Of a DNA stretch of 64,000 nucleotides, positions 49,226 to 57,048 are shown one piece after another. The stretch is from Streptomyces niveus (GTDB lineage: Bacteria; Actinomycetota; Actinomycetes; Streptomycetales; Streptomycetaceae). A program made the position numbers and the translations under genes. Each line of letters starts with the position of its first letter. The first letter of the stretch is position 1. The stretch covers positions 992,001-1,056,000 of the forward strand of contig NZ_CP018047.1 in the NCBI RefSeq assembly GCF_002009175.1, read 5' to 3'. The notes beneath the pieces are model-generated. The model was not told the origin of the DNA. It saw only the letters and a program-made list of their open reading frames with translations, and ran no database searches.

Positions 49226-50227
49226 TCAGGTCTGCCTGAGGGGTTCGTACGTCTGGGCGTCGAGGCCGAACGTCCAGGCGACCCCCTCCTTGGCGGTGCG
49301 GGTGTTCGGCGGCACCCGCAGCCAGTAGGTGCGGCTCGTGCCGTCGGGCTCCGGGGTGGAGTTGACGACCTCGACCATCACGACGTCCTCGTCGTCGGCG
49401 AGCGCTATCCGCCACAGGATGCCGGTCTCGTCCTTGCCGATCGGCTCGGCGCCGGATTCGGCGAGGTAGCGGTCGTAGCCGTAGTACTCCAGCATCACGC
49501 GGCGCAGTTCCGCGTTCTCCTCGGTGCGGATCCGCGCCGGGTCGAGCGTGGTCAGCTCGGCGAGGAAGTCGGCCGGGACCGGCATACCTCGCCACGCGTA
49601 GAGCGCGAAGCCGTCCGGGTAGGCGAGGGCCGGGCCGTCGCCGCGGTCGAGGCGTCCCGCCTCGTCGCGGTGCAGCTCCACCGGGCGTTCGCAGACCACC
49701 GTCACCTTCTCGTACGGCCACCACCAGCCGGCGTGGGCCGCCACCTCGGCGAGCCCCGCCAGCCGCTCGCCCCGGCCGTCGAACGCGGCCAGCCAGGCGG
49801 CGTCGTGCTGGCCGAGGACCGCGTCGAGCAGCAACTGACGTGTCTCGGGCAGCTCCGCGGGGTCCGTGGTGGGCGCGTCGGTGATGCCGGAGCGGATCCG
49901 CTCGGCGAGCGCGCGGGTGGTGTCCCACAGCCGGGCGCCCGTGACGCCCCACCACTCGGCCCAGCCCGCCGGGCCCAACTCGTCGTGGATACGCCGCCGT
50001 TCCTCGGCCCACGGCTTGGTGCGCACCTCGTCACGGACCGATCTGCCCTGCTCCGTGAGAGACCGGACGGCGGTCAGTCCGGCGAGCGGCGAGTCCGCCC
50101 AGACGATCCGCTCCGGCTCGGCCAGTCCGGCCGTGCGGTAGGCGAGCCGTATCCCCGCCTCGGCCGCCGGCCGGTCCGCCGCCCCCGTCGCCGCCGCGAC
50201 GCCCCGCCACTTGTCCACCTGCTGCAT
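49226..50227 (-). CDS. DUF6745 domain protein facing the STM4011-4015 cassette
   Basis: This is a 333-residue protein of unknown function. The C-terminal 130 residues match the DUF6745 pattern: LYAWRGMPVPADFL, ARIRTEENAELRRVMLEYYGYDRYL, GKDETGILWRI, MVEVVNSTPEPDGTSRTYWLRVPP and AWTFGLDAQTYEPLRQT. The N-terminal half is helical and Trp-rich with no signal or membrane segment. ATG 50227 has GGGG eight bases upstream. It is transcribed away from the leucine-rich-repeat genes with the 109-residue gene at 50333-50662, 105 bp upstream. In my recollection DUF6745 proteins often accompany leucine-rich-repeat proteins in bacteria, so a functional link to the cassette is plausible. Confidence 0.8.
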   Translation of the reverse strand: MQQVDKWRGVAAATGAADRPAAEAGIRLAYRTAGLAEPERIVWADSPLAGLTAVRSLTEQGRSVRDEVRTKPWAEERRRIHDELGPAGWAEWWGVTGARLWDTTRALAERIRSGITDAPTTDPAELPETRQLLLDAVLGQHDAAWLAAFDGRGERLAGLAEVAAHAGWWWPYEKVTVVCERPVELHRDEAGRLDRGDGPALAYPDGFALYAWRGMPVPADFLAELTTLDPARIRTEENAELRRVMLEYYGYDRYLAESGAEPIGKDETGILWRIALADDEDVVMVEVVNSTPEPDGTSRTYWLRVPPNTRTAKEGVAWTFGLDAQTYEPLRQT

Positions 50228-50332
50228 GTCTGAAGCCCCGTCCCCTGTTGTCACTGTCGTTCCGTGCACTGATCTGCCCTGTCCTGCCCTGCGATTACGC
50301 CGCGATCTTCGACGCGTTCCGCCCGTCCGTCC

Positions 50333-50662
50333 TCAGTCGGCGACGACGCGCACCGCGCCCGGCAGGTACTCGCGCTGGCGCACCACGCGGAACCACCCCT
50401 TGGGCAGCGGGATCATCGCGTGCTCCTCGTGCACCACCCGGCCGCCCTCCGGCAGATGGAGCAGCATCGGCCCGAACTCGCCGCCGGTCTCCCGGACGAG
50501 CCTGCCGGGGCCCGTCACCGCGTGGGCGTGTCCCGTGACCTCGCCCAGCGCCAGAACGAGGCGCCCCCGCGCGTCCCTCGGCTCGCTCCGCGCCTCGGTG
50601 ATGCCGGACGGCACGCTCTCCTCAGCGACGGGCACGATGAGCACGTCTCCCTGCCGGTACAT
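50333..50662 (-). CDS. Small conserved protein with VTGHAH motif
   Basis: This 109-residue protein starts MYRQGDVLIVPV and contains LALGEVTGHAHAV, VVHEEHAMIPLPKGWFRVVRQREY and a terminal VRVVAD. The conserved His residues (GHAH, HEEH) could bind a metal. The strand-rich composition suggests a small beta barrel. Similar RQGDVLL...VTGH proteins occur in phages and beside DUF6745 genes. No function is established. ATG 50662 has GAGGGGAG four bases upstream. It is divergent from the first leucine-rich-repeat gene (170-bp gap) and is probably cotranscribed with the DUF6745 gene. Confidence 0.8.
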   Translation of the reverse strand: MYRQGDVLIVPVAEESVPSGITEARSEPRDARGRLVLALGEVTGHAHAVTGPGRLVRETGGEFGPMLLHLPEGGRVVHEEHAMIPLPKGWFRVVRQREYLPGAVRVVAD

Positions 50663-50831
50663 GGCTCTCCCCTCGACCGGCGGCGCCGAGTGCGCCGACC
50701 TGTGAACGACGCTAGACCGTGGGTCTGACAATCGGCTCCGCCCCCCGAACGGGGTTGTCAGTGGCGCCTGTTACAACTTCTCTCAGCATCAAGCCGATCA
50801 ACGCCGACGCCCGGTGTCTGGAGCACTCGCC

Positions 50832-51779
50832 ATGACCGTTTCGAACCACCTGCAGGAGTTGGACGGCCTGCCCGCGTTCGACTTCCCCGACGCCGAAGCC
50901 GAACCGAAGGCGAAGCTCCCCGACGCGGGCTCGGTGGCCTGGCGTGTCGGCGTCGACGCGTACGACAGCGAGGAGGAGTGGGAGGAGGCGTTCGCCCGCT
51001 TCCTCGCCGCCGTCGACTCCACACAGGTCCGCGCGCTGATCGTGGGCGCCTGGAGCGAGGCGTACGACACCGCGCCGGACGAGGTGACGGGCGCCCTCGT
51101 CGCGGCGAGCGACCGGCTTCCCTCGCTGCGGGCGCTGTTCGTAGGTGACATCACCTACGAGGAGTGCGAGATCTCCTGGATCAACCAGGCGGCGACGGGC
51201 CCCCTGATCAACGCCTTCCCGCAGCTCCACTCGTTCGGGGTGCGCGGTGGCCAGGGGCTGGACATGGCCGGCATCAAGCACGAAGGGCTGCGTTCGCTGA
51301 CTGTCGAGACGGGCGGTCTGGACGCCGGGGTGGTGCGTGACATCGGCGCGGCCGATCTGCCCGCGCTGGAGCATCTGGACATCTGGCTGGGGGTTTCCTG
51401 GTACGGGGCGAACACGATCGTGGCGGACCTGGATCCGTTCCTCACCGGGGCCCGGCTGCCCGCGCTGAAGTCACTGGCCCTGCGGAACAGCGAGATCCAG
51501 GACGAGATAGCCGCCGCTCTGGCGGGAGCGCCGGTCGTGGCCCGCCTGGAGACGCTCGACCTGTCGATGGGCACCCTCGGGGACGAGGGCGCGGAGGCGC
51601 TGCTCAGTGGGCAGCCGCTCACGCACCTCAAGAAGCTCGATCTTCACCACCACTATCTGAGCGAGCCGATGGAGAAGCGGCTCCGCGAGACGCTGGAGCC
51701 CGCCGGGGTGGTCGTGGACCTCTCCGAGCGCGAGTCCGCGAGGGACGACGAGTCGCGCTACACGGCGGTGGCCGAATGA
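50832..51779 (+). CDS. STM4015-family leucine-rich-repeat protein, copy 1
   Basis: This 315-residue cytoplasmic protein starts HLQELDGLPAFDFP. Its middle and C-terminus carry irregular leucine-rich repeats: LPSLRALFVGDITYEECEISW, LPALEHLDIWLG, LPALKSLALRNSEIQDEIAAALAG and LETLDLSMGTLGDEGAEALLSG followed by LTHLKKLDLHHHYLS. ATG 50832 has GGAG nine bases upstream. It overlaps the paralogue that follows by 4 bp. In STM4011-4015 clusters this family is the non-enzymatic member. It could be the substrate, a scaffold or a recognition protein (inference). Confidence 0.88.
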   Translation: MTVSNHLQELDGLPAFDFPDAEAEPKAKLPDAGSVAWRVGVDAYDSEEEWEEAFARFLAAVDSTQVRALIVGAWSEAYDTAPDEVTGALVAASDRLPSLRALFVGDITYEECEISWINQAATGPLINAFPQLHSFGVRGGQGLDMAGIKHEGLRSLTVETGGLDAGVVRDIGAADLPALEHLDIWLGVSWYGANTIVADLDPFLTGARLPALKSLALRNSEIQDEIAAALAGAPVVARLETLDLSMGTLGDEGAEALLSGQPLTHLKKLDLHHHYLSEPMEKRLRETLEPAGVVVDLSERESARDDESRYTAVAE

Positions 51780-52759
51780 CCGGCCCGGACGGAATCGACC
51801 ACATCGAGGAGTTCCACGGGCTGCCCGTCCTCACCCTTCCGCGCGACGAGACCCCGGCGCCGGAGACACTGCCCGAGCCCGACGCCGTCGCGTGGCGGCT
51901 GGACTGCGGGTGGGACCAGGAGTGGCCGTTCGCCAGGCTGTGGCGGCGGTTCACGGACGTCGTGGACACCGAGCGGGTGCGCGCGCTGGTCATCGGGCCC
52001 TGGTGGTGCGGCGAGTACTCGGAACTGAGGCCCGTCCTGGAGCTGATCGTCGCCGACGCGGCGCGGTTCCCCGCCCTGCGCGCGCTGTTCCTGGCGGACG
52101 TGGTCGGCGAGGAGTGCGAGGTGTCCTGGCTGCGGATCAACGACATCACCCCCGCGATCGAGGCGTTCCCGCTGCTGGAGGAGTTCGGGGTGCGGGGCTG
52201 CGGCGACACGTACAGGGACGGTGACCTGCGGCTGCGGCCGGTGAAGCACGACCGGCTGCGGGTCCTGCGCTTCGAGTCGGGCGGGCTGCCGGGGGCCGTC
52301 GTGCGGGCCGTCGGTGCGAGCGAACTGCCCGCGCTGGAGCATCTGGAGCTGTGGCTGGGCGTCGATGAGTACGGGGGCAACGCGACAGTCGCCGATCTGG
52401 CGCCGCTCCTCGACGGCGGCCGGCTCCCGCGGCTGCGCCATCTGGGGCTCCAGAACAGCGAGATCCAGGACGAGATCGCGGGCGCCGTGGCCTCGGCGCC
52501 GGTCGTCGCCGGGCTCCGTTCGCTGGACCTGTCCATGGGAGTGCTGTCCGACGCGGGCGCCGAAGCGCTCCTCGCCGGCCAGCCGCTGACCCATCTCAAG
52601 GAGCTGGACCTGAATCATCACTTCGTCTCGAAGCCCTGGATCGAGCGGATCGAACATGCTCTGGGGCCGCACGGCGTGCGGCTGGGGCTGGGGTCCGCGA
52701 TGGACTACAGCGGCGGTACCGACGAAGACGAGTGGCGTTATGTCGCCGTCTCCGAGTAG
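51776..52759 (+). CDS. STM4015-family leucine-rich-repeat protein, copy 2
   Basis: This 327-residue paralogue of the preceding protein matches it over the full length. It shares LPALEHLELWLGVDEYGGNATVADL, LQNSEIQDEIAGAVASAPVVAGLRSLDLSMGVLSDAGAEALLAGQPLTHLKELDLNHHFVS and a similar acidic C-terminus (DEDEWRYVAVSE). The N-terminal part is more divergent and longer. The head-to-tail order, shared motifs and 4-bp overlap indicate a local duplication. Conservation is strongest in the repeat surface, which suggests related but distinct partners. Its end overlaps the ATP-grasp gene by 20 bp. Confidence 0.88.
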   Translation: MTGPDGIDHIEEFHGLPVLTLPRDETPAPETLPEPDAVAWRLDCGWDQEWPFARLWRRFTDVVDTERVRALVIGPWWCGEYSELRPVLELIVADAARFPALRALFLADVVGEECEVSWLRINDITPAIEAFPLLEEFGVRGCGDTYRDGDLRLRPVKHDRLRVLRFESGGLPGAVVRAVGASELPALEHLELWLGVDEYGGNATVADLAPLLDGGRLPRLRHLGLQNSEIQDEIAGAVASAPVVAGLRSLDLSMGVLSDAGAEALLAGQPLTHLKELDLNHHFVSKPWIERIEHALGPHGVRLGLGSAMDYSGGTDEDEWRYVAVSE

Positions 52760-53966
52760 TTCCGGGCCGCGTCCGGAGCCTGCCCTGGCGGTCGTCGGCA
52801 ATCCCGCCAACCGGCGTGTCGGCCTGTTCCAGGACGCGGTCCGGACGGCGGGCCTGCCGCCGGCCCGAGAGGTGGCCTGGCTCGAAGTGCTGGGCGGGCG
52901 TGCCGAGTTCCGGCCGGGTGAGGTCGTACGGGTCGAGTCGCCGGGCGAGGACGCCGCGGTGGAGCGGCTGCTGCGCGGCACGGACGACGCCACCCGCGTG
53001 GAGGGCACGGCCCTCTGGTACGAGCGGTTCACCTCCGCCGTACGGGAGCTGGGCCGCGCCGTGCGCGAGGCGGGGGCCGGTCTCCTGGACGACCCGGACG
53101 AGTTGGCGGTGCTCTTCGACAAGCGGCTGTGCCACGAGGTGCTGGACCTGGCCTCCGTTCCCGTGCCTCCGTCGCCGACCTCGGGGGCCCGCGCCCCGGC
53201 GGTGCGGGGCTGGGACGACGTACGCGCGCTGATGGACGGCCCCGGCATGCGCCGGGCGTTCGTCAAGCTCGCCCACGGGTCGTCCGCCTCCGGGGTGCTG
53301 GCGGTCGAGACCGCCGGTCCCGGTCGGGTGCGGGCGACGACATCGGTCGAACGCGACGCCTCAGGGCGGCTGTTCAACTCGCTGCGGGTGCGGCGCCTGA
53401 CCACCGAGCAGGAGGTGGCGGCGGTCGTCGACGCGCTGGCCCCGGACGGGCTGCATGTCGAGCGGTGGCTGCCGAAGGCCACGCAGCACGGCCGGGCGGC
53501 CGATCTGCGGGTGGTGGTCGTCGCGGGCCGGGCGACGCACGCCGTCGTACGGACCAGTTCGTCGCCCATGACCAATCTGCATCTCGGCGGGGCCCGCGGC
53601 GATCTGAACGCGGCGCGGGAGGCGACCGAAGCGGCCGGGGGCGGCCGGAGCTGGGCCGCCGCGCTGGAGATCTGCGAGCGAGCGGCGGCCTGCTTCCCCG
53701 GCACGCACTGCGTGGGGGTCGACCTGCTGCCCGCGACCGGCTGGCGCCGTTTCGCCGTCGGTGAGGTCAACGCCTTCGGCGACCTGCTGCCGGGTCTCAG
53801 CGGGCTGCCGGGAAGCGGTGCGGAGGGCCTGGACACCTACGGGGCGCAGCTCGCGGCGCTGCGGGCGGGCGACCGCCCCGGGGGCGCGCGGACCGACGGC
53901 ACCGCCGCCGGGGCCAGGGCCGAGGCCACCGATGTCGCGGGACGGGAGCACCATGCCCACATCTGA
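52740..53966 (+). CDS. STM4014-family ATP-grasp-like protein
   Basis: This 408-residue protein shows the layout of a RimK-like ATP-grasp ligase. An N-terminal pre-ATP-grasp domain (ALAVVGNPANRRVGLFQDAVRTAG) comes first. The segment LFDKRLCHEVLDLASVPVPPSP follows, then the ATP-binding lysine strand RRAFVKLAHGSSASGVLAVE. VERWLPKATQHGRAADLRVVVVAGRATHAVVRT is next, and Mg-ligand-type ends VGVDLLPATGWRRFAVGEVNAFGDLLPGL complete it. ATP-grasp enzymes join a carboxylate to an amine or thiol via an acyl phosphate, so a peptide or protein ligase role is likely (inference). ATG 52740 lies within the end of the second repeat gene. The last 40 residues are Ala/Gly-rich. Confidence 0.85.
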   Translation: MSPSPSSSGPRPEPALAVVGNPANRRVGLFQDAVRTAGLPPAREVAWLEVLGGRAEFRPGEVVRVESPGEDAAVERLLRGTDDATRVEGTALWYERFTSAVRELGRAVREAGAGLLDDPDELAVLFDKRLCHEVLDLASVPVPPSPTSGARAPAVRGWDDVRALMDGPGMRRAFVKLAHGSSASGVLAVETAGPGRVRATTSVERDASGRLFNSLRVRRLTTEQEVAAVVDALAPDGLHVERWLPKATQHGRAADLRVVVVAGRATHAVVRTSSSPMTNLHLGGARGDLNAAREATEAAGGGRSWAAALEICERAAACFPGTHCVGVDLLPATGWRRFAVGEVNAFGDLLPGLSGLPGSGAEGLDTYGAQLAALRAGDRPGGARTDGTAAGARAEATDVAGREHHAHI

Positions 53967-54816
53967 GACGGGGAGTGCCGCCGGCCTCGCCGCCGGGCTG
54001 CCCGACATGAGCCGTGTCGTCGGCCACGACGACCTGCTGCTGGTCACGCTCGACACGCTGCGTTTCGATGTGGCGGCCGAACTGGCCGAGGCGGGCCGGC
54101 TGCCGAATCTCGCGCCTCATCTGCCCGGTGGCCGCTGGGAGGAGCGGCACGCTCCCGGCAGCTTCACCTACGCCTCGCACCAGGCGATGTTCGCCGGTTT
54201 CCTGCCGACTCCGGCGGCGCCGGGGCCGCATCCGCGGCTGTTCGCCGCGCGGTTCGAGGGGAGCGAGTCCACGGCCGACGGGACGTTCGTCTTCGACACG
54301 CCCGACCTCGTGTCGGGTCTCGCGGAGGCCGGTTACCGCACGGTGTGCATCGGGGGTGTCGGCTTCTTCAACAAGCGCGGCGCGCTCGGTTCCGTACTGC
54401 CGGGGATGTTCCAGGAGAGCCACTGGGCGCCGGAGTTCGGAGTGGCGTCGCCGACGTCGTTCGAGTCGCAGGTGGCTCGCGCGGAGGAGGTCGTGGCCGA
54501 ACTGCCCGCTGAACAGCGGCTGTTCCTCTTCGTCAATGTGCCGTCGCTGCATCAGCCGAACTGGTTCCATCTGCCCGGCGCCACCCGTGCGGCGGGGGAC
54601 TCGCGGGAGACGCACGCCGCCGCGCTCGAATACGTCGACCGGCACATCGGGCGGCTGTTCGCCGCGGCGAGCAGCCGGCGCCGCTGCTTCACGATCGTCT
54701 GTTCCGACCACGGTACGGCCTACGGCGACGACGGGTGGAGCGGCCACCGCCTGGGCCACGAGTCCGTCTGGACCGTGCCGTACGCCCATTTCTTCCTGGA
54801 ACCTGGGGCACCCTGA
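53953..54816 (+). CDS. STM4013-family alkaline-phosphatase-superfamily hydrolase
   Basis: This 287-residue protein has the fold marks of the alkaline phosphatase/sulfatase superfamily. DLLLVTLDTLRFDVA carries the first metal-binding acid, GSFTYASHQAMFAGFLPTP occupies the nucleophile region with Thr/Ser, and TIVCSDHGTAYGDDGWSGHRLGHESVWTVPY carries the C-terminal Asp-His and His ligands. It is shorter than free sulfatases and has no signal peptide, so it acts in the cytoplasm. It could cleave a phosphate, sulfate or phosphodiester from a modified intermediate. ATG 53953 lies 14 bp before the end of the preceding gene with GGGAG upstream. Its stop overlaps the next start (TGATG). Confidence 0.87.
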   Translation: MPTSETGSAAGLAAGLPDMSRVVGHDDLLLVTLDTLRFDVAAELAEAGRLPNLAPHLPGGRWEERHAPGSFTYASHQAMFAGFLPTPAAPGPHPRLFAARFEGSESTADGTFVFDTPDLVSGLAEAGYRTVCIGGVGFFNKRGALGSVLPGMFQESHWAPEFGVASPTSFESQVARAEEVVAELPAEQRLFLFVNVPSLHQPNWFHLPGATRAAGDSRETHAAALEYVDRHIGRLFAAASSRRRCFTIVCSDHGTAYGDDGWSGHRLGHESVWTVPYAHFFLEPGAP

Positions 54817-56195
54817 TGACCGACCCGACCAGCACCACCACCATCGCGCCGCGTCCGTACGAGAGTTACGTCTACGCGTATCCGCACAAGACCGCGTACC
54901 GGCCGCTCACCGACCGTCCGGCCCTGAGCGCGCTGTGGGCGGGCGAGCGCAAGGACGCGCTCTCGCTCTATCTGCACATTCCGTTCTGCGAGGTGCGCTG
55001 CGGCTTCTGCAATCTCTTCACGCGGATCGGCGCGCCCGGCGAACTGACGACCCGTTATCTGGACGCGCTGGACCGGCAGGCGTCGGCCGTCGCGGACGCC
55101 CTCCACGCACACCCCGTTCCGGGCACCACGGAAGCGAGCGCAGGCCCGGTACGGTTCGCCGCCGCGGCCTTCGGCGGTGGCACGCCCACCTTCCTCACGG
55201 CCGGGGAGCTGGAGCGGCTGTGCGACATCGCCGAGAAGCGGATGGGCGCCGATCTGCGGGCCGTCCCGCTCTCCGTCGAGACGTCGCCGTCGACCGCGAC
55301 GGCCGACCGGCTGTCGGTGCTGGCCGACCGGGGGGCCACACGGCTGAGCATCGGTGTGCAGAGCTTCGTGGAGGAGGAGGCGAAGGCGGCGGTGCGCCCG
55401 CAGCGCCGCTCCGACGTCGAGGCGGCCCTCGGCCGGATCCGGGACGCGCGGATCCCGGTCCTCAACATCGATCTCATCTACGGCATCGACGGCCAGACGC
55501 CCCGGTCCTGGCGGCTCTCGCTCGACGCGGCGCTCGCCTGGCGGCCCGAGGAGCTGTATCTCTACCCGCTGTACGCCCGGCCGTTGACCCCGCTCGGCAG
55601 GCGCGCCCATCCCAGCGAGGCCGGCTGGGACGCCCAGCGGCTGGCGCTGTACCGCCAGGGGCGGGACCATCTCCTCGCGCAGGGCTACGAGCAGGTGTCG
55701 ATGCGGATGTTCCGGCTGCCCGGCGCGCCGCGCGAAGGGGCGGACGACTACGCGTGCCAGACCGACGGCATGATCGGCCTCGGCTGCGGCGCGCGGTCGT
55801 ACACCTCGGACCTGCACTACTCCTTCGACTACGCGGTCGGGATGCGCGAGATACGCACGATCATCGACGCGTACACGGTCACCGAGGACTTCTCCCGTGC
55901 CGAGGTGGGGCGCGCGGTCGACGCGGACGAGGCGCGCCGGCGTCATCTGCTCCAGTCGCTGCTCCAGGCCGAGGGCATGGCGGTGGCCGACTACCAGGAG
56001 CGGTTCGGCAGCGGCCCCTTCGACGACTTCCCCGCGGAGCTGAACCGTTTCGCCGGTCTCGGCTGGCTCGACACGGACGCCGGCCCCGGCCTGCTCCGGC
56101 TCTCGCCCGAGGGTCTGGCCCACTCGGACGCGCTGGGTCCGGCACTGTTCTCCCCCGCCGTCCGGGCGGCGATGGCGTCGTACGAACTGAAGTGA
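54816..56195 (+). CDS. STM4012-family radical SAM protein (HemW-like)
   Basis: This 459-residue radical SAM protein has the [4Fe-4S] motif in LYLHIPFCEVRCGFCNLF (Cys58, Cys62, Cys65, C-x3-C-x2-C). The SAM-binding GGE-like strand is FGGGTPTFL, and TRLSIGVQSF resembles the coproporphyrinogen dehydrogenase/HemW group. The C-terminal 130 residues form a HemN_C-like domain (GLGCGARSYTSDLHYSFDYAVG). HemW relatives bind haem or make radical additions. In this conserved cluster the substrate is unknown. It is translationally coupled to the hydrolase and followed eight bases later by the second radical SAM gene. Confidence 0.92.
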   Translation: MTDPTSTTTIAPRPYESYVYAYPHKTAYRPLTDRPALSALWAGERKDALSLYLHIPFCEVRCGFCNLFTRIGAPGELTTRYLDALDRQASAVADALHAHPVPGTTEASAGPVRFAAAAFGGGTPTFLTAGELERLCDIAEKRMGADLRAVPLSVETSPSTATADRLSVLADRGATRLSIGVQSFVEEEAKAAVRPQRRSDVEAALGRIRDARIPVLNIDLIYGIDGQTPRSWRLSLDAALAWRPEELYLYPLYARPLTPLGRRAHPSEAGWDAQRLALYRQGRDHLLAQGYEQVSMRMFRLPGAPREGADDYACQTDGMIGLGCGARSYTSDLHYSFDYAVGMREIRTIIDAYTVTEDFSRAEVGRAVDADEARRRHLLQSLLQAEGMAVADYQERFGSGPFDDFPAELNRFAGLGWLDTDAGPGLLRLSPEGLAHSDALGPALFSPAVRAAMASYELK

Positions 56196-56202
56196 GACAG
56201 AC

Positions 56203-57048
56203 GTGGACCTGACGATCCTCTACCGCGGCCCGCTCGCGTCCTGCGACTACGACTGCCCCTACTGCCCGTTCGCCAAGCGCCGCGACAGCCCCGCCCAACT
56301 GCGCGCGGACCGCGCCGCGCTGGAACGCTTCACGGCCTGGGCCGCCGAGCGGACGGACGACCGGCTGTCGGTCCTGATCACCCCCTGGGGCGAGGGCCTC
56401 ACCCGATCCTGGTACCGACGCGCGCTCACCGACCTCTCCCATCTGCCGCATGTCGCGCGGGTCGCCATCCAGACGAACCTCAGCTGCCGCACGGACTGGC
56501 TGAAGTCCGCCGACCCGGCCAAGGTGGCCCTGTGGTGCACGTACCACCCGGGCCAGACGCCGTACGACCGCTTCCTCACCAAGTGCCGTGAGCTGGGGGC
56601 CGCGGGCATCCGCTTCAGCGTCGGCATCGTGGGCTTCCCGGACCATCTCGACCAGGCCCGCCGCCTCCGCGCCGACCTCCCGGAACACGTCTATCTGTGG
56701 GTCAACGCGGCGGAGGGCCGCACCTATTCGGACCCGGAGGCAGCCGACTGGACATCGGTCGACCCCCTGTTCCCGTACAGCCGCCACCCGCACCGCTCGG
56801 CCGGGCTGCCGTGCCGGACGGGCGAATCGGTGATCTCGGTTGACGGCGAAGGCACGGTCCGCCGCTGCCACTTCGTCCCGGCGGAGCTGGGCAACCTCTA
56901 CGACGGCTCGTACCGCGCGGCCCTGAAGCCCCGTGCGTGCCCGCTCACCACCTGCGACTGTCACATCGGCTACGTCCACCTGGAGACACTGCCGCTGTAC
57001 GACGTCTTCGCCGGTGGCGTCCTGGAACGGATACCGGCCGCGCGGTGA
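56203..57048 (+). CDS. STM4011-family radical SAM protein
   Basis: This 281-residue radical SAM protein has the cluster motif right at the N-terminus: CDYDCPYC (Cys14, Cys18, Cys21). The C-terminal third has further cysteines (VRRCHFVP, ACPLTTCDC) that could hold an auxiliary cluster, as in SPASM/twitch peptide-modifying enzymes. The C-terminal CGY-type end YVHLETLPLYDVFAGG is family-specific. GTG 56203 starts seven bases after the previous stop. Together with the HemW-like protein it gives the cassette two radical enzymes, pointing to difficult C-H chemistry on a peptide, protein or cofactor. Confidence 0.9.
   Translation: MDLTILYRGPLASCDYDCPYCPFAKRRDSPAQLRADRAALERFTAWAAERTDDRLSVLITPWGEGLTRSWYRRALTDLSHLPHVARVAIQTNLSCRTDWLKSADPAKVALWCTYHPGQTPYDRFLTKCRELGAAGIRFSVGIVGFPDHLDQARRLRADLPEHVYLWVNAAEGRTYSDPEAADWTSVDPLFPYSRHPHRSAGLPCRTGESVISVDGEGTVRRCHFVPAELGNLYDGSYRAALKPRACPLTTCDCHIGYVHLETLPLYDVFAGGVLERIPAAR

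Follow-up and report, generated by a model that had tools for sequence, protein, structure and literature searches.

The closest described counterparts of the system discussed here are ligases that use carboxylates of proteins or peptides. PsnB, a graspetide ligase, acts on precursor carboxylates. LysX and ArgX join an amine to the C-terminal glutamate of a partner protein, which in LysW belongs to an EDWGE motif (passages of PMC10433800). The STM4011-STM4015 cassette considered below lies in a 64,000-nucleotide stretch of Streptomyces niveus DNA (the window; bases 992001-1056000 of a 7.99 Mb genome assembled as a single contig) and combines a LysX-like ATP-grasp protein with a hydrolase, two radical S-adenosylmethionine (SAM) enzymes and two leucine-rich-repeat (LRR) proteins of the STM4015 family. 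The conserved STM4015 tail, with its invariant C-terminal glutamate, is a new observation. That glutamate is probably the acceptor of the ATP-grasp ligase, whether the attached group then stays in place or is released, and we tentatively propose that the cassette covalently modifies the STM4015 tail and that the finished group remains on the protein.

The open-licence literature yielded no functional account of STM4011-STM4015, of DUF6745 or of this enzyme combination, no biochemical data on the cassette, and no paper on 2ra8, the solved structure nearest to STM4015. Excerpts of two papers mention the genes: STM4013 is listed in a table of sigma-54 binding (PMC3844500), and a selection table includes STM4015, described there as hypothetical (PMC2784778).

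The features of the operon in the window are as follows.

50832..51779, plus strand: STM4015 LRR protein, copy a, proposed substrate (NF038076, 394 bits; cut-off 275)
51756..51776, plus strand: C-terminal tail of copy a, RYTAVAE, with its last Glu as proposed modification site (Glu invariant in 22/22 diverse STM4015 proteins)
51776..52759, plus strand: STM4015 LRR protein, copy b, proposed substrate (NF038076, 369 bits; cut-off 275)
52736..52756, plus strand: C-terminal tail of copy b, RYVAVSE, overlapping the STM4014 start
52740..53966, plus strand: STM4014, ATP-grasp ligase of LysX/ArgX/RimK type (NCBIfam, 447.6 bits; cut-off 175)
53953..54816, plus strand: STM4013 (STM4013/SEN3800 family), alkaline-phosphatase-superfamily hydrolase resembling nucleotide pyrophosphatase/phosphodiesterase (NPP) (NF038075, 419.6 bits; cut-off 250)
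54816..56195, plus strand: STM4012, HemN/NocN-like radical SAM enzyme (NF006067, 629.6 bits; cut-off 380)
56203..57048, plus strand: STM4011, radical SAM enzyme with a C-terminal cysteine set like that of an auxiliary cluster (NF038073, 420.2 bits; cut-off 200)

All six rightward genes (50.8-57.0 kb) exceed the curated NCBIfam cut-offs for STM4011-STM4015, and they are joined, in order, by a 4-base overlap, a 20-base overlap, a 14-base overlap, one shared base and a 7-base gap. These matches and junctions, together with the two genes facing the operon, bear out the eight genes of the initial annotation at their stated coordinates. For copy a, aligned orthologues favour an ATG start at 50832 over the GTG at 50814 of the listed open reading frame.

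A conserved C-terminal tail in STM4015

In an alignment of 22 diverse STM4015 proteins from six phyla, whose other members are 28-53% identical to copy b of the window, every protein ends in glutamate. The tail mostly reads RYxAVxE and follows an Asp/Glu-rich linker that varies in length and sequence; an Arg-Tyr-like pair stands upstream of the last Glu (R in 19/22, Y in 16/22). Over 304 scored columns, the terminal Glu lies at the 96th percentile of conservation and the tail Tyr at the 95th, with linker columns 305-319 below the 50th. Within the tail itself, no position is more constant than the last one, and most of the residues before it vary. Among 248 distinct STM4015 proteins, mostly from Streptomyces, 222 of the 225 that come from fetched loci holding STM4014 end in Glu, the three exceptions (L026, L234 and L237) ending in Ala, as do 17 of the 23 from fetched stretches without STM4014, some of them short enough that STM4014 may lie beyond their ends. 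The tail extends to a third STM4015 protein of the same genome, encoded 2.2 Mb away and ending GRYIAASE. Retention of the tail merely through its overlap with the STM4014 start codon was considered and rejected, because copy a does not overlap that codon and the tail is also kept by extra-operon copies.

An AlphaFold2 model of copy b has a confident LRR body (mean predicted local distance difference test score, pLDDT, 85.4), with residues 308-327 below 50. The nearest solved structure, 2ra8, is a Bacteroides fragilis homologue (E 1.5e-91) labelled 'uncharacterized'. Its coordinates apparently reach residue 354, the final Glu by sequence, ahead of an eight-residue extension that is probably a purification tag, which weighs against a simple disordered tail. 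The STM4015 bodies diverge faster (57-61% median identity) than the enzymes (75-85%). On a Bacteroides plasmid, the STM4015 protein (L137:6918-7988) carries an N-terminal WGR domain (PF05406, 65 bits).

Enzymes of the cassette

STM4014 has an ATP-grasp fold nearest to that of LysX among solved structures. LysX/ArgX rank first by profile and by Foldseek, and tie for first with RimK in VIA-align structural alignment. The best ten Foldseek rows comprise LysX/ArgX, RimK and PsnB, enzymes that act on protein or peptide carboxylates; the absence of PsnB from the best 50 VIA-align rows carries no weight either way. STM4014 scores 15 bits against the LysX model TIGR02144 (cut-off 275.6) and 18.4 bits against the RimK-family model TIGR00768 (cut-off 143.4).

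The best PDB profile matches of STM4013 are the NPP structures 7n1s and 2gsn (E 6.7e-7), and the region around T72 aligns with both. D34, T72, H200, D229, D252, H253, H265 and H269 are invariant in 9/9 sequences, a set that presumably corresponds to the Thr nucleophile and metal-binding Asp/His residues of NPP enzymes.

STM4012 matches HemN (7.9e-53) and NocN (2.1e-33) in the PDB, scores 114.8 bits against the HemN model (cut-off 324.95), and contains CxxxCxxC followed by Asn-Leu. STM4011 combines CxxxCxxC with a C-terminal C-x12-G-x4-C (C204, G217, C222) and then C246, C251 and C253, and its eight cysteines are invariant in 12/12 sequences. This arrangement fits the SPASM/twitch motif, C-x9-15-G-x4-C and further cysteines. 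The region also matches SkfB (E 4.5e-4); the Pfam SPASM model gave no match to the STM4011 protein of the window at E up to 0.1, and 18.3 bits for the Bacteroides homologue against a cut-off of 21.5. All of the named enzyme motifs are intact in the window copies.

Phosphatases of the haloacid dehalogenase (HAD) superfamily occur beside STM4011 elsewhere. The Bacteroides plasmid encodes STM4011 fused to a Cof-type HAD phosphatase (L137:9370-10932), in Salmonella the end of STM4011 overlaps a gene for a HAD phosphatase (L136:11793-12527), and another lies close to the cassette in Deinococcus taeanensis (L146:11483-12310).

Co-occurrence and distribution

A scan of named genomes for STM4014 confirmed 425 relatives, and the best 80 loci, all from Streptomyces or from organisms labelled Kitasatospora apart from two from Nocardia, were kept for locus counts of matches spanning more than half of the query. 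STM4015 and STM4014 are matched at all 80 of these loci, STM4012 and STM4011 at 79 each and STM4013 at 78, with DUF6745 at 78 and the small protein VTGHAH at 79. Flanking genes drop off (GDSL lipase 72, TetR 66, GDH 35, PfkB kinase 10), and the two Nocardia loci (L034 and L070) keep the whole block without any of them; these four genes were accordingly rejected as parts. Among 219 Streptomyces genomes surveyed at E up to 1e-20, STM4014 occurs in 98 and STM4015 in 101, and STM4015 accompanies STM4014 in 98/98. The cassette is a real unit and not a chance assembly; STM4014 and STM4015 do not scatter independently in these genomes, nor do the five families in the 80 loci, an outcome that the initial annotation had named as one that would count against it.

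The cassette is patchy, since STM4014 exceeds its cut-off in just 6/396 Actinomycetota genomes. S. griseus is among its carriers (locus L062). The order 4015-4014-4013-4012-4011 recurs in Streptomyces/Nocardia, Deinococcus, Methylobacterium, Paenibacillus and Salmonella, and is found on plasmids of Deinococcus (three records), Methylobacterium, Paenibacillus, Salmonella (one of the two records read) and Streptomyces. The one Bacteroides plasmid copy that was read holds STM4015, STM4014, a piece of STM4013 and the STM4011-HAD phosphatase fusion; STM4012 was not found in its fetched stretch. A megablast search, able to reveal near matches only, found no copies of the Salmonella cassette in E. 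coli. A Calothrix plasmid (L143:2014-3285) encodes a cyanobacterial STM4015 protein ending EDRYCSVAE, with no further cassette gene found in the 8 kb read.

The DUF6745 and VTGHAH genes

Two genes on the opposite strand adjoin the operon.

49226..50269, minus strand: DUF6745 protein, accessory module (PF20530, 390.8 bits; cut-off 27; matched in 78/80 related loci)
50333..50662, minus strand: VTGHAH small protein, accessory module and DUF6745 partner (start at 50662 set by the conserved MYRQGDV; matched in 79/80 loci)

They face the two STM4015 genes, beyond which STM4014-4013-4012-4011 follow. In the region between the divergent sets (50662-50832), conserved GGGTCTGACAA and TTGTCAG blocks appear in most of the 12 aligned sequences shown; judged by eye, these may perhaps be back-to-back or paired promoters, or a shared operator. 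The VTGHAH protein has no Pfam match at E up to 0.1 and no NCBIfam match at E up to 0.01, and a PDB search yielded no useful match for its fold or function; it is a real gene because it is conserved in nearly all of the related loci.

The pair travels with the cassette in Streptomyces, Nocardia, Nonomuraea, Deinococcus and Methylobacterium, and phmmer did not find it in the fetched Salmonella, Paenibacillus, Bacteroides and Embleya stretches. A strong DUF6745 form is present in 85/98 Streptomyces genomes with STM4014 and in 1/121 without it. Eight STM4014-less Streptomyces genomes (G022, G456, G463, G516, G532, G570, G592 and G599) have a diverged form, with best matches of about 70-111 bits. 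In the Microcystis phage Ma-LMM01 (L279:4968-6499), gp175, a VTGHAH protein, adjoins the DUF6745-like gp174 near polymerase and exonuclease genes, and no STM401x gene is annotated within the 10 kb read around them. The two genes form a separable module, because the pair is missing from some cassettes and present in Ma-LMM01 without STM401x, and on the same grounds they were rejected as core parts. The initial annotation had counted them as members of the cassette, and they are better described as accessory; the co-occurrence of repeat and DUF6745 genes that it asked about is seen in 78/80 loci and 85/98 genomes and is lacking in the Salmonella and Paenibacillus stretches.

Proposed mechanism and alternatives

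The initial annotation read the fixed order of an ATP-grasp protein, a hydrolase and radical SAM proteins as a probable protein-modification cassette and named the repeat proteins as one possible substrate. The order and the enzymes stand, and the conserved tail and the LysX/RimK kinship make the proposal more specific, with the repeat protein as the likely substrate; the reaction, the order of its steps and the persistence of the group on the protein are what we infer. STM4014 would use ATP to activate the carboxylate of the invariant last Glu of STM4015 and would couple it to a small molecule that bears an amine, in the way that LysX acts on LysW and RimK on ribosomal protein S6. STM4011 and STM4012 would then remodel this group, or else a tail residue close by, and STM4013 would remove a phosphate or phosphodiester, aided in some lineages by the HAD phosphatase. 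The finished group would stay on several different repeat proteins as their common chemical end, one tail being carried by fast-evolving bodies.

Genomes without STM4014 offer a natural test of the link between tail and ligase, which is suggestive but not clean. Five Streptomyces genomes (G026, G483, G507, G709 and G763) have STM4015 and no STM4014 match, and their STM4015 proteins end PSISVGPLTY, ERYVSIAV, WRSICVEGLP, PDICVGPVSY and HNFVADGRDF, so that the conserved tail is found in 0/5. Extra-operon copies in STM4014-bearing genomes end in Glu in 23/29 cases (Fisher p 0.0017), two of the 29 (L212 and L213) being separated from the cassette by only some 5-8 kb. The check for missing STM4014 covered the 219 genomes and 80 of 93 further STM4015-bearing genomes, the 13 with the strongest STM4015 match being left out. 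The tail count takes the identical L142 and L250 once and excludes the frame-broken L266, a minus-strand open reading frame in L138, partial copies in G773 and G777, and the Calothrix copy. Several points limit this test. The genomes counted were hand-picked for extra or odd copies (36, as 20 + 16, plus this genome and three plasmid records). Endings like ISVGPLTY and FVADGRDF also make up the six exceptions among the 29, and a separate paralogue lineage may explain the tail-less copies. In addition, G722, whose STM4014 is broken, has an STM4015 protein still ending in Glu. A second STM4015 lineage outside the cassette does recur, with endings such as ISVGPLTY and ICVGPVSY (L198, L199, L210, L211, L251 and L271-L273), and in the four of these loci that were read with their flanks (L226-L229) the adjacent genes seemed unrelated.

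The same terminal Glu could serve a carrier similar to LysW, on which STM4014 loads a molecule that the radical SAM enzymes and hydrolases process while it is tethered, before a metabolite or cofactor is released. The nearest kin of STM4014, LysX and ArgX, are indeed carrier-loading ligases, and phosphatase-type partners (STM4013, and the HAD domain fused to STM4011 in Bacteroides) suit small-molecule processing. The amine is attached to the gamma-carboxyl of the last Glu in LysW, and a strain with ArgW E54A is an arginine auxotroph (both from passages of PMC10433800). A carrier of this kind is nonetheless on the unlikely side: several diverged repeat proteins share one tail, some of them far from the cassette, which is more than one carrier requires, and LysW, unlike the repeat protein, is small, has cysteines that bind zinc and carries its Glu at position 54. 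Nor is a peptidase gene common to the annotated plasmid loci, the Streptomyces chromosomal neighbourhoods not having been searched for one; one S41 peptidase gene lies near the Bacteroides cassette copy. We favour a shared end group over a single-use carrier because diverged bodies share one tail and change faster than the enzymes.

If the tail were only a docking signal, the substrate of STM4014 would be a free small molecule, with the repeat protein gathering enzymes or targets. Repeat proteins commonly serve as scaffolds, the tail is acidic and could bind STM4014, which is more basic, and the small-molecule ligases DcsG and glutathione synthetase come close behind LysX by fold. Some docking tags, such as PDZ ligands, end exactly at the C terminus, which also speaks for docking. 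This explanation is rather unlikely, given that the last residue is the most constant of a tail in which most others vary, that the enzymes in the best ten Foldseek rows act on protein or peptide carboxylates, and that a terminal Glu is the residue LysX uses on LysW (passages of PMC10433800). It is very improbable that the modification falls on DUF6745 or VTGHAH, with STM4015 as an adaptor. The pair does accompany the operon in almost all of the Streptomyces/Nocardia loci and in Deinococcus and Methylobacterium, but it was not found around the Salmonella and Paenibacillus cassettes, which hold all five core genes, the strong DUF6745 form is missing from 13/98 STM4014-bearing Streptomyces, and Ma-LMM01 carries the pair with no STM401x gene annotated nearby. 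For an anti-phage defence system, which was also considered, a PADLOC scan of 8 proteins gave no convincing match, only STM4012 against PDC-M51A at 24.7 bits.

Comparison with known systems

To our knowledge, and within the open-licence literature searched, no earlier LRR-borne carrier or precursor has been described, and STM4015 would be the first. It is almost an even call whether the cassette represents a new kind of end-modification, in which one set of enzymes uses radical SAM chemistry to build a group on the C-terminal Glu of an LRR family with several members per genome, some megabases away, the repeat body picking the partner and the tail carrying the common chemistry. The families are already named; if the proposal is true, this patchy cassette, which spans phyla, acquires a substrate, a residue and a first enzyme that can be tested, and the function of STM4011-STM4015 reduces to a mass-spectrometry question on one peptide.

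The radical SAM enzymes have relatives of several kinds. STM4012 is homologous to HemN for the greater part of its length (profile 18-419 of 445) and to NocN over 45-315, although it falls below the HemN cut-off and lacks the fourth Cys of HemN. STM4011 shares its C-terminal cysteine region with SkfB-type enzymes of ribosomally synthesized and post-translationally modified peptides, and STM4014 matches PsnB in fold by Foldseek; unlike in the graspetide and SkfB systems, here the tail of a folded repeat protein would serve as the core. STM4014 scores well below the RimK-family cut-off, and we know of no radical SAM or hydrolase partners for RimK and S6. The closest likeness is to LysX/ArgX, with which STM4014 shares the ATP-grasp fold and whose partner protein also ends in Glu, the invariant Glu of STM4015 standing, as in LysW/ArgW, on an acidic tail. 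STM4015 differs from LysW/ArgW as an LRR protein of about 320 amino acids with no small zinc-binding Cys domain, and EDWGE ends 0/22 of its aligned tails, which mostly read RYxAVxE. The cassette partners are likewise radical SAM enzymes and a phosphodiesterase-like hydrolase rather than the lysine/arginine enzymes that accompany LysX/ArgX. If the proposed modification is true, amino-group-carrier or RimK-type tail chemistry extends to repeat proteins and to radical SAM tailoring.

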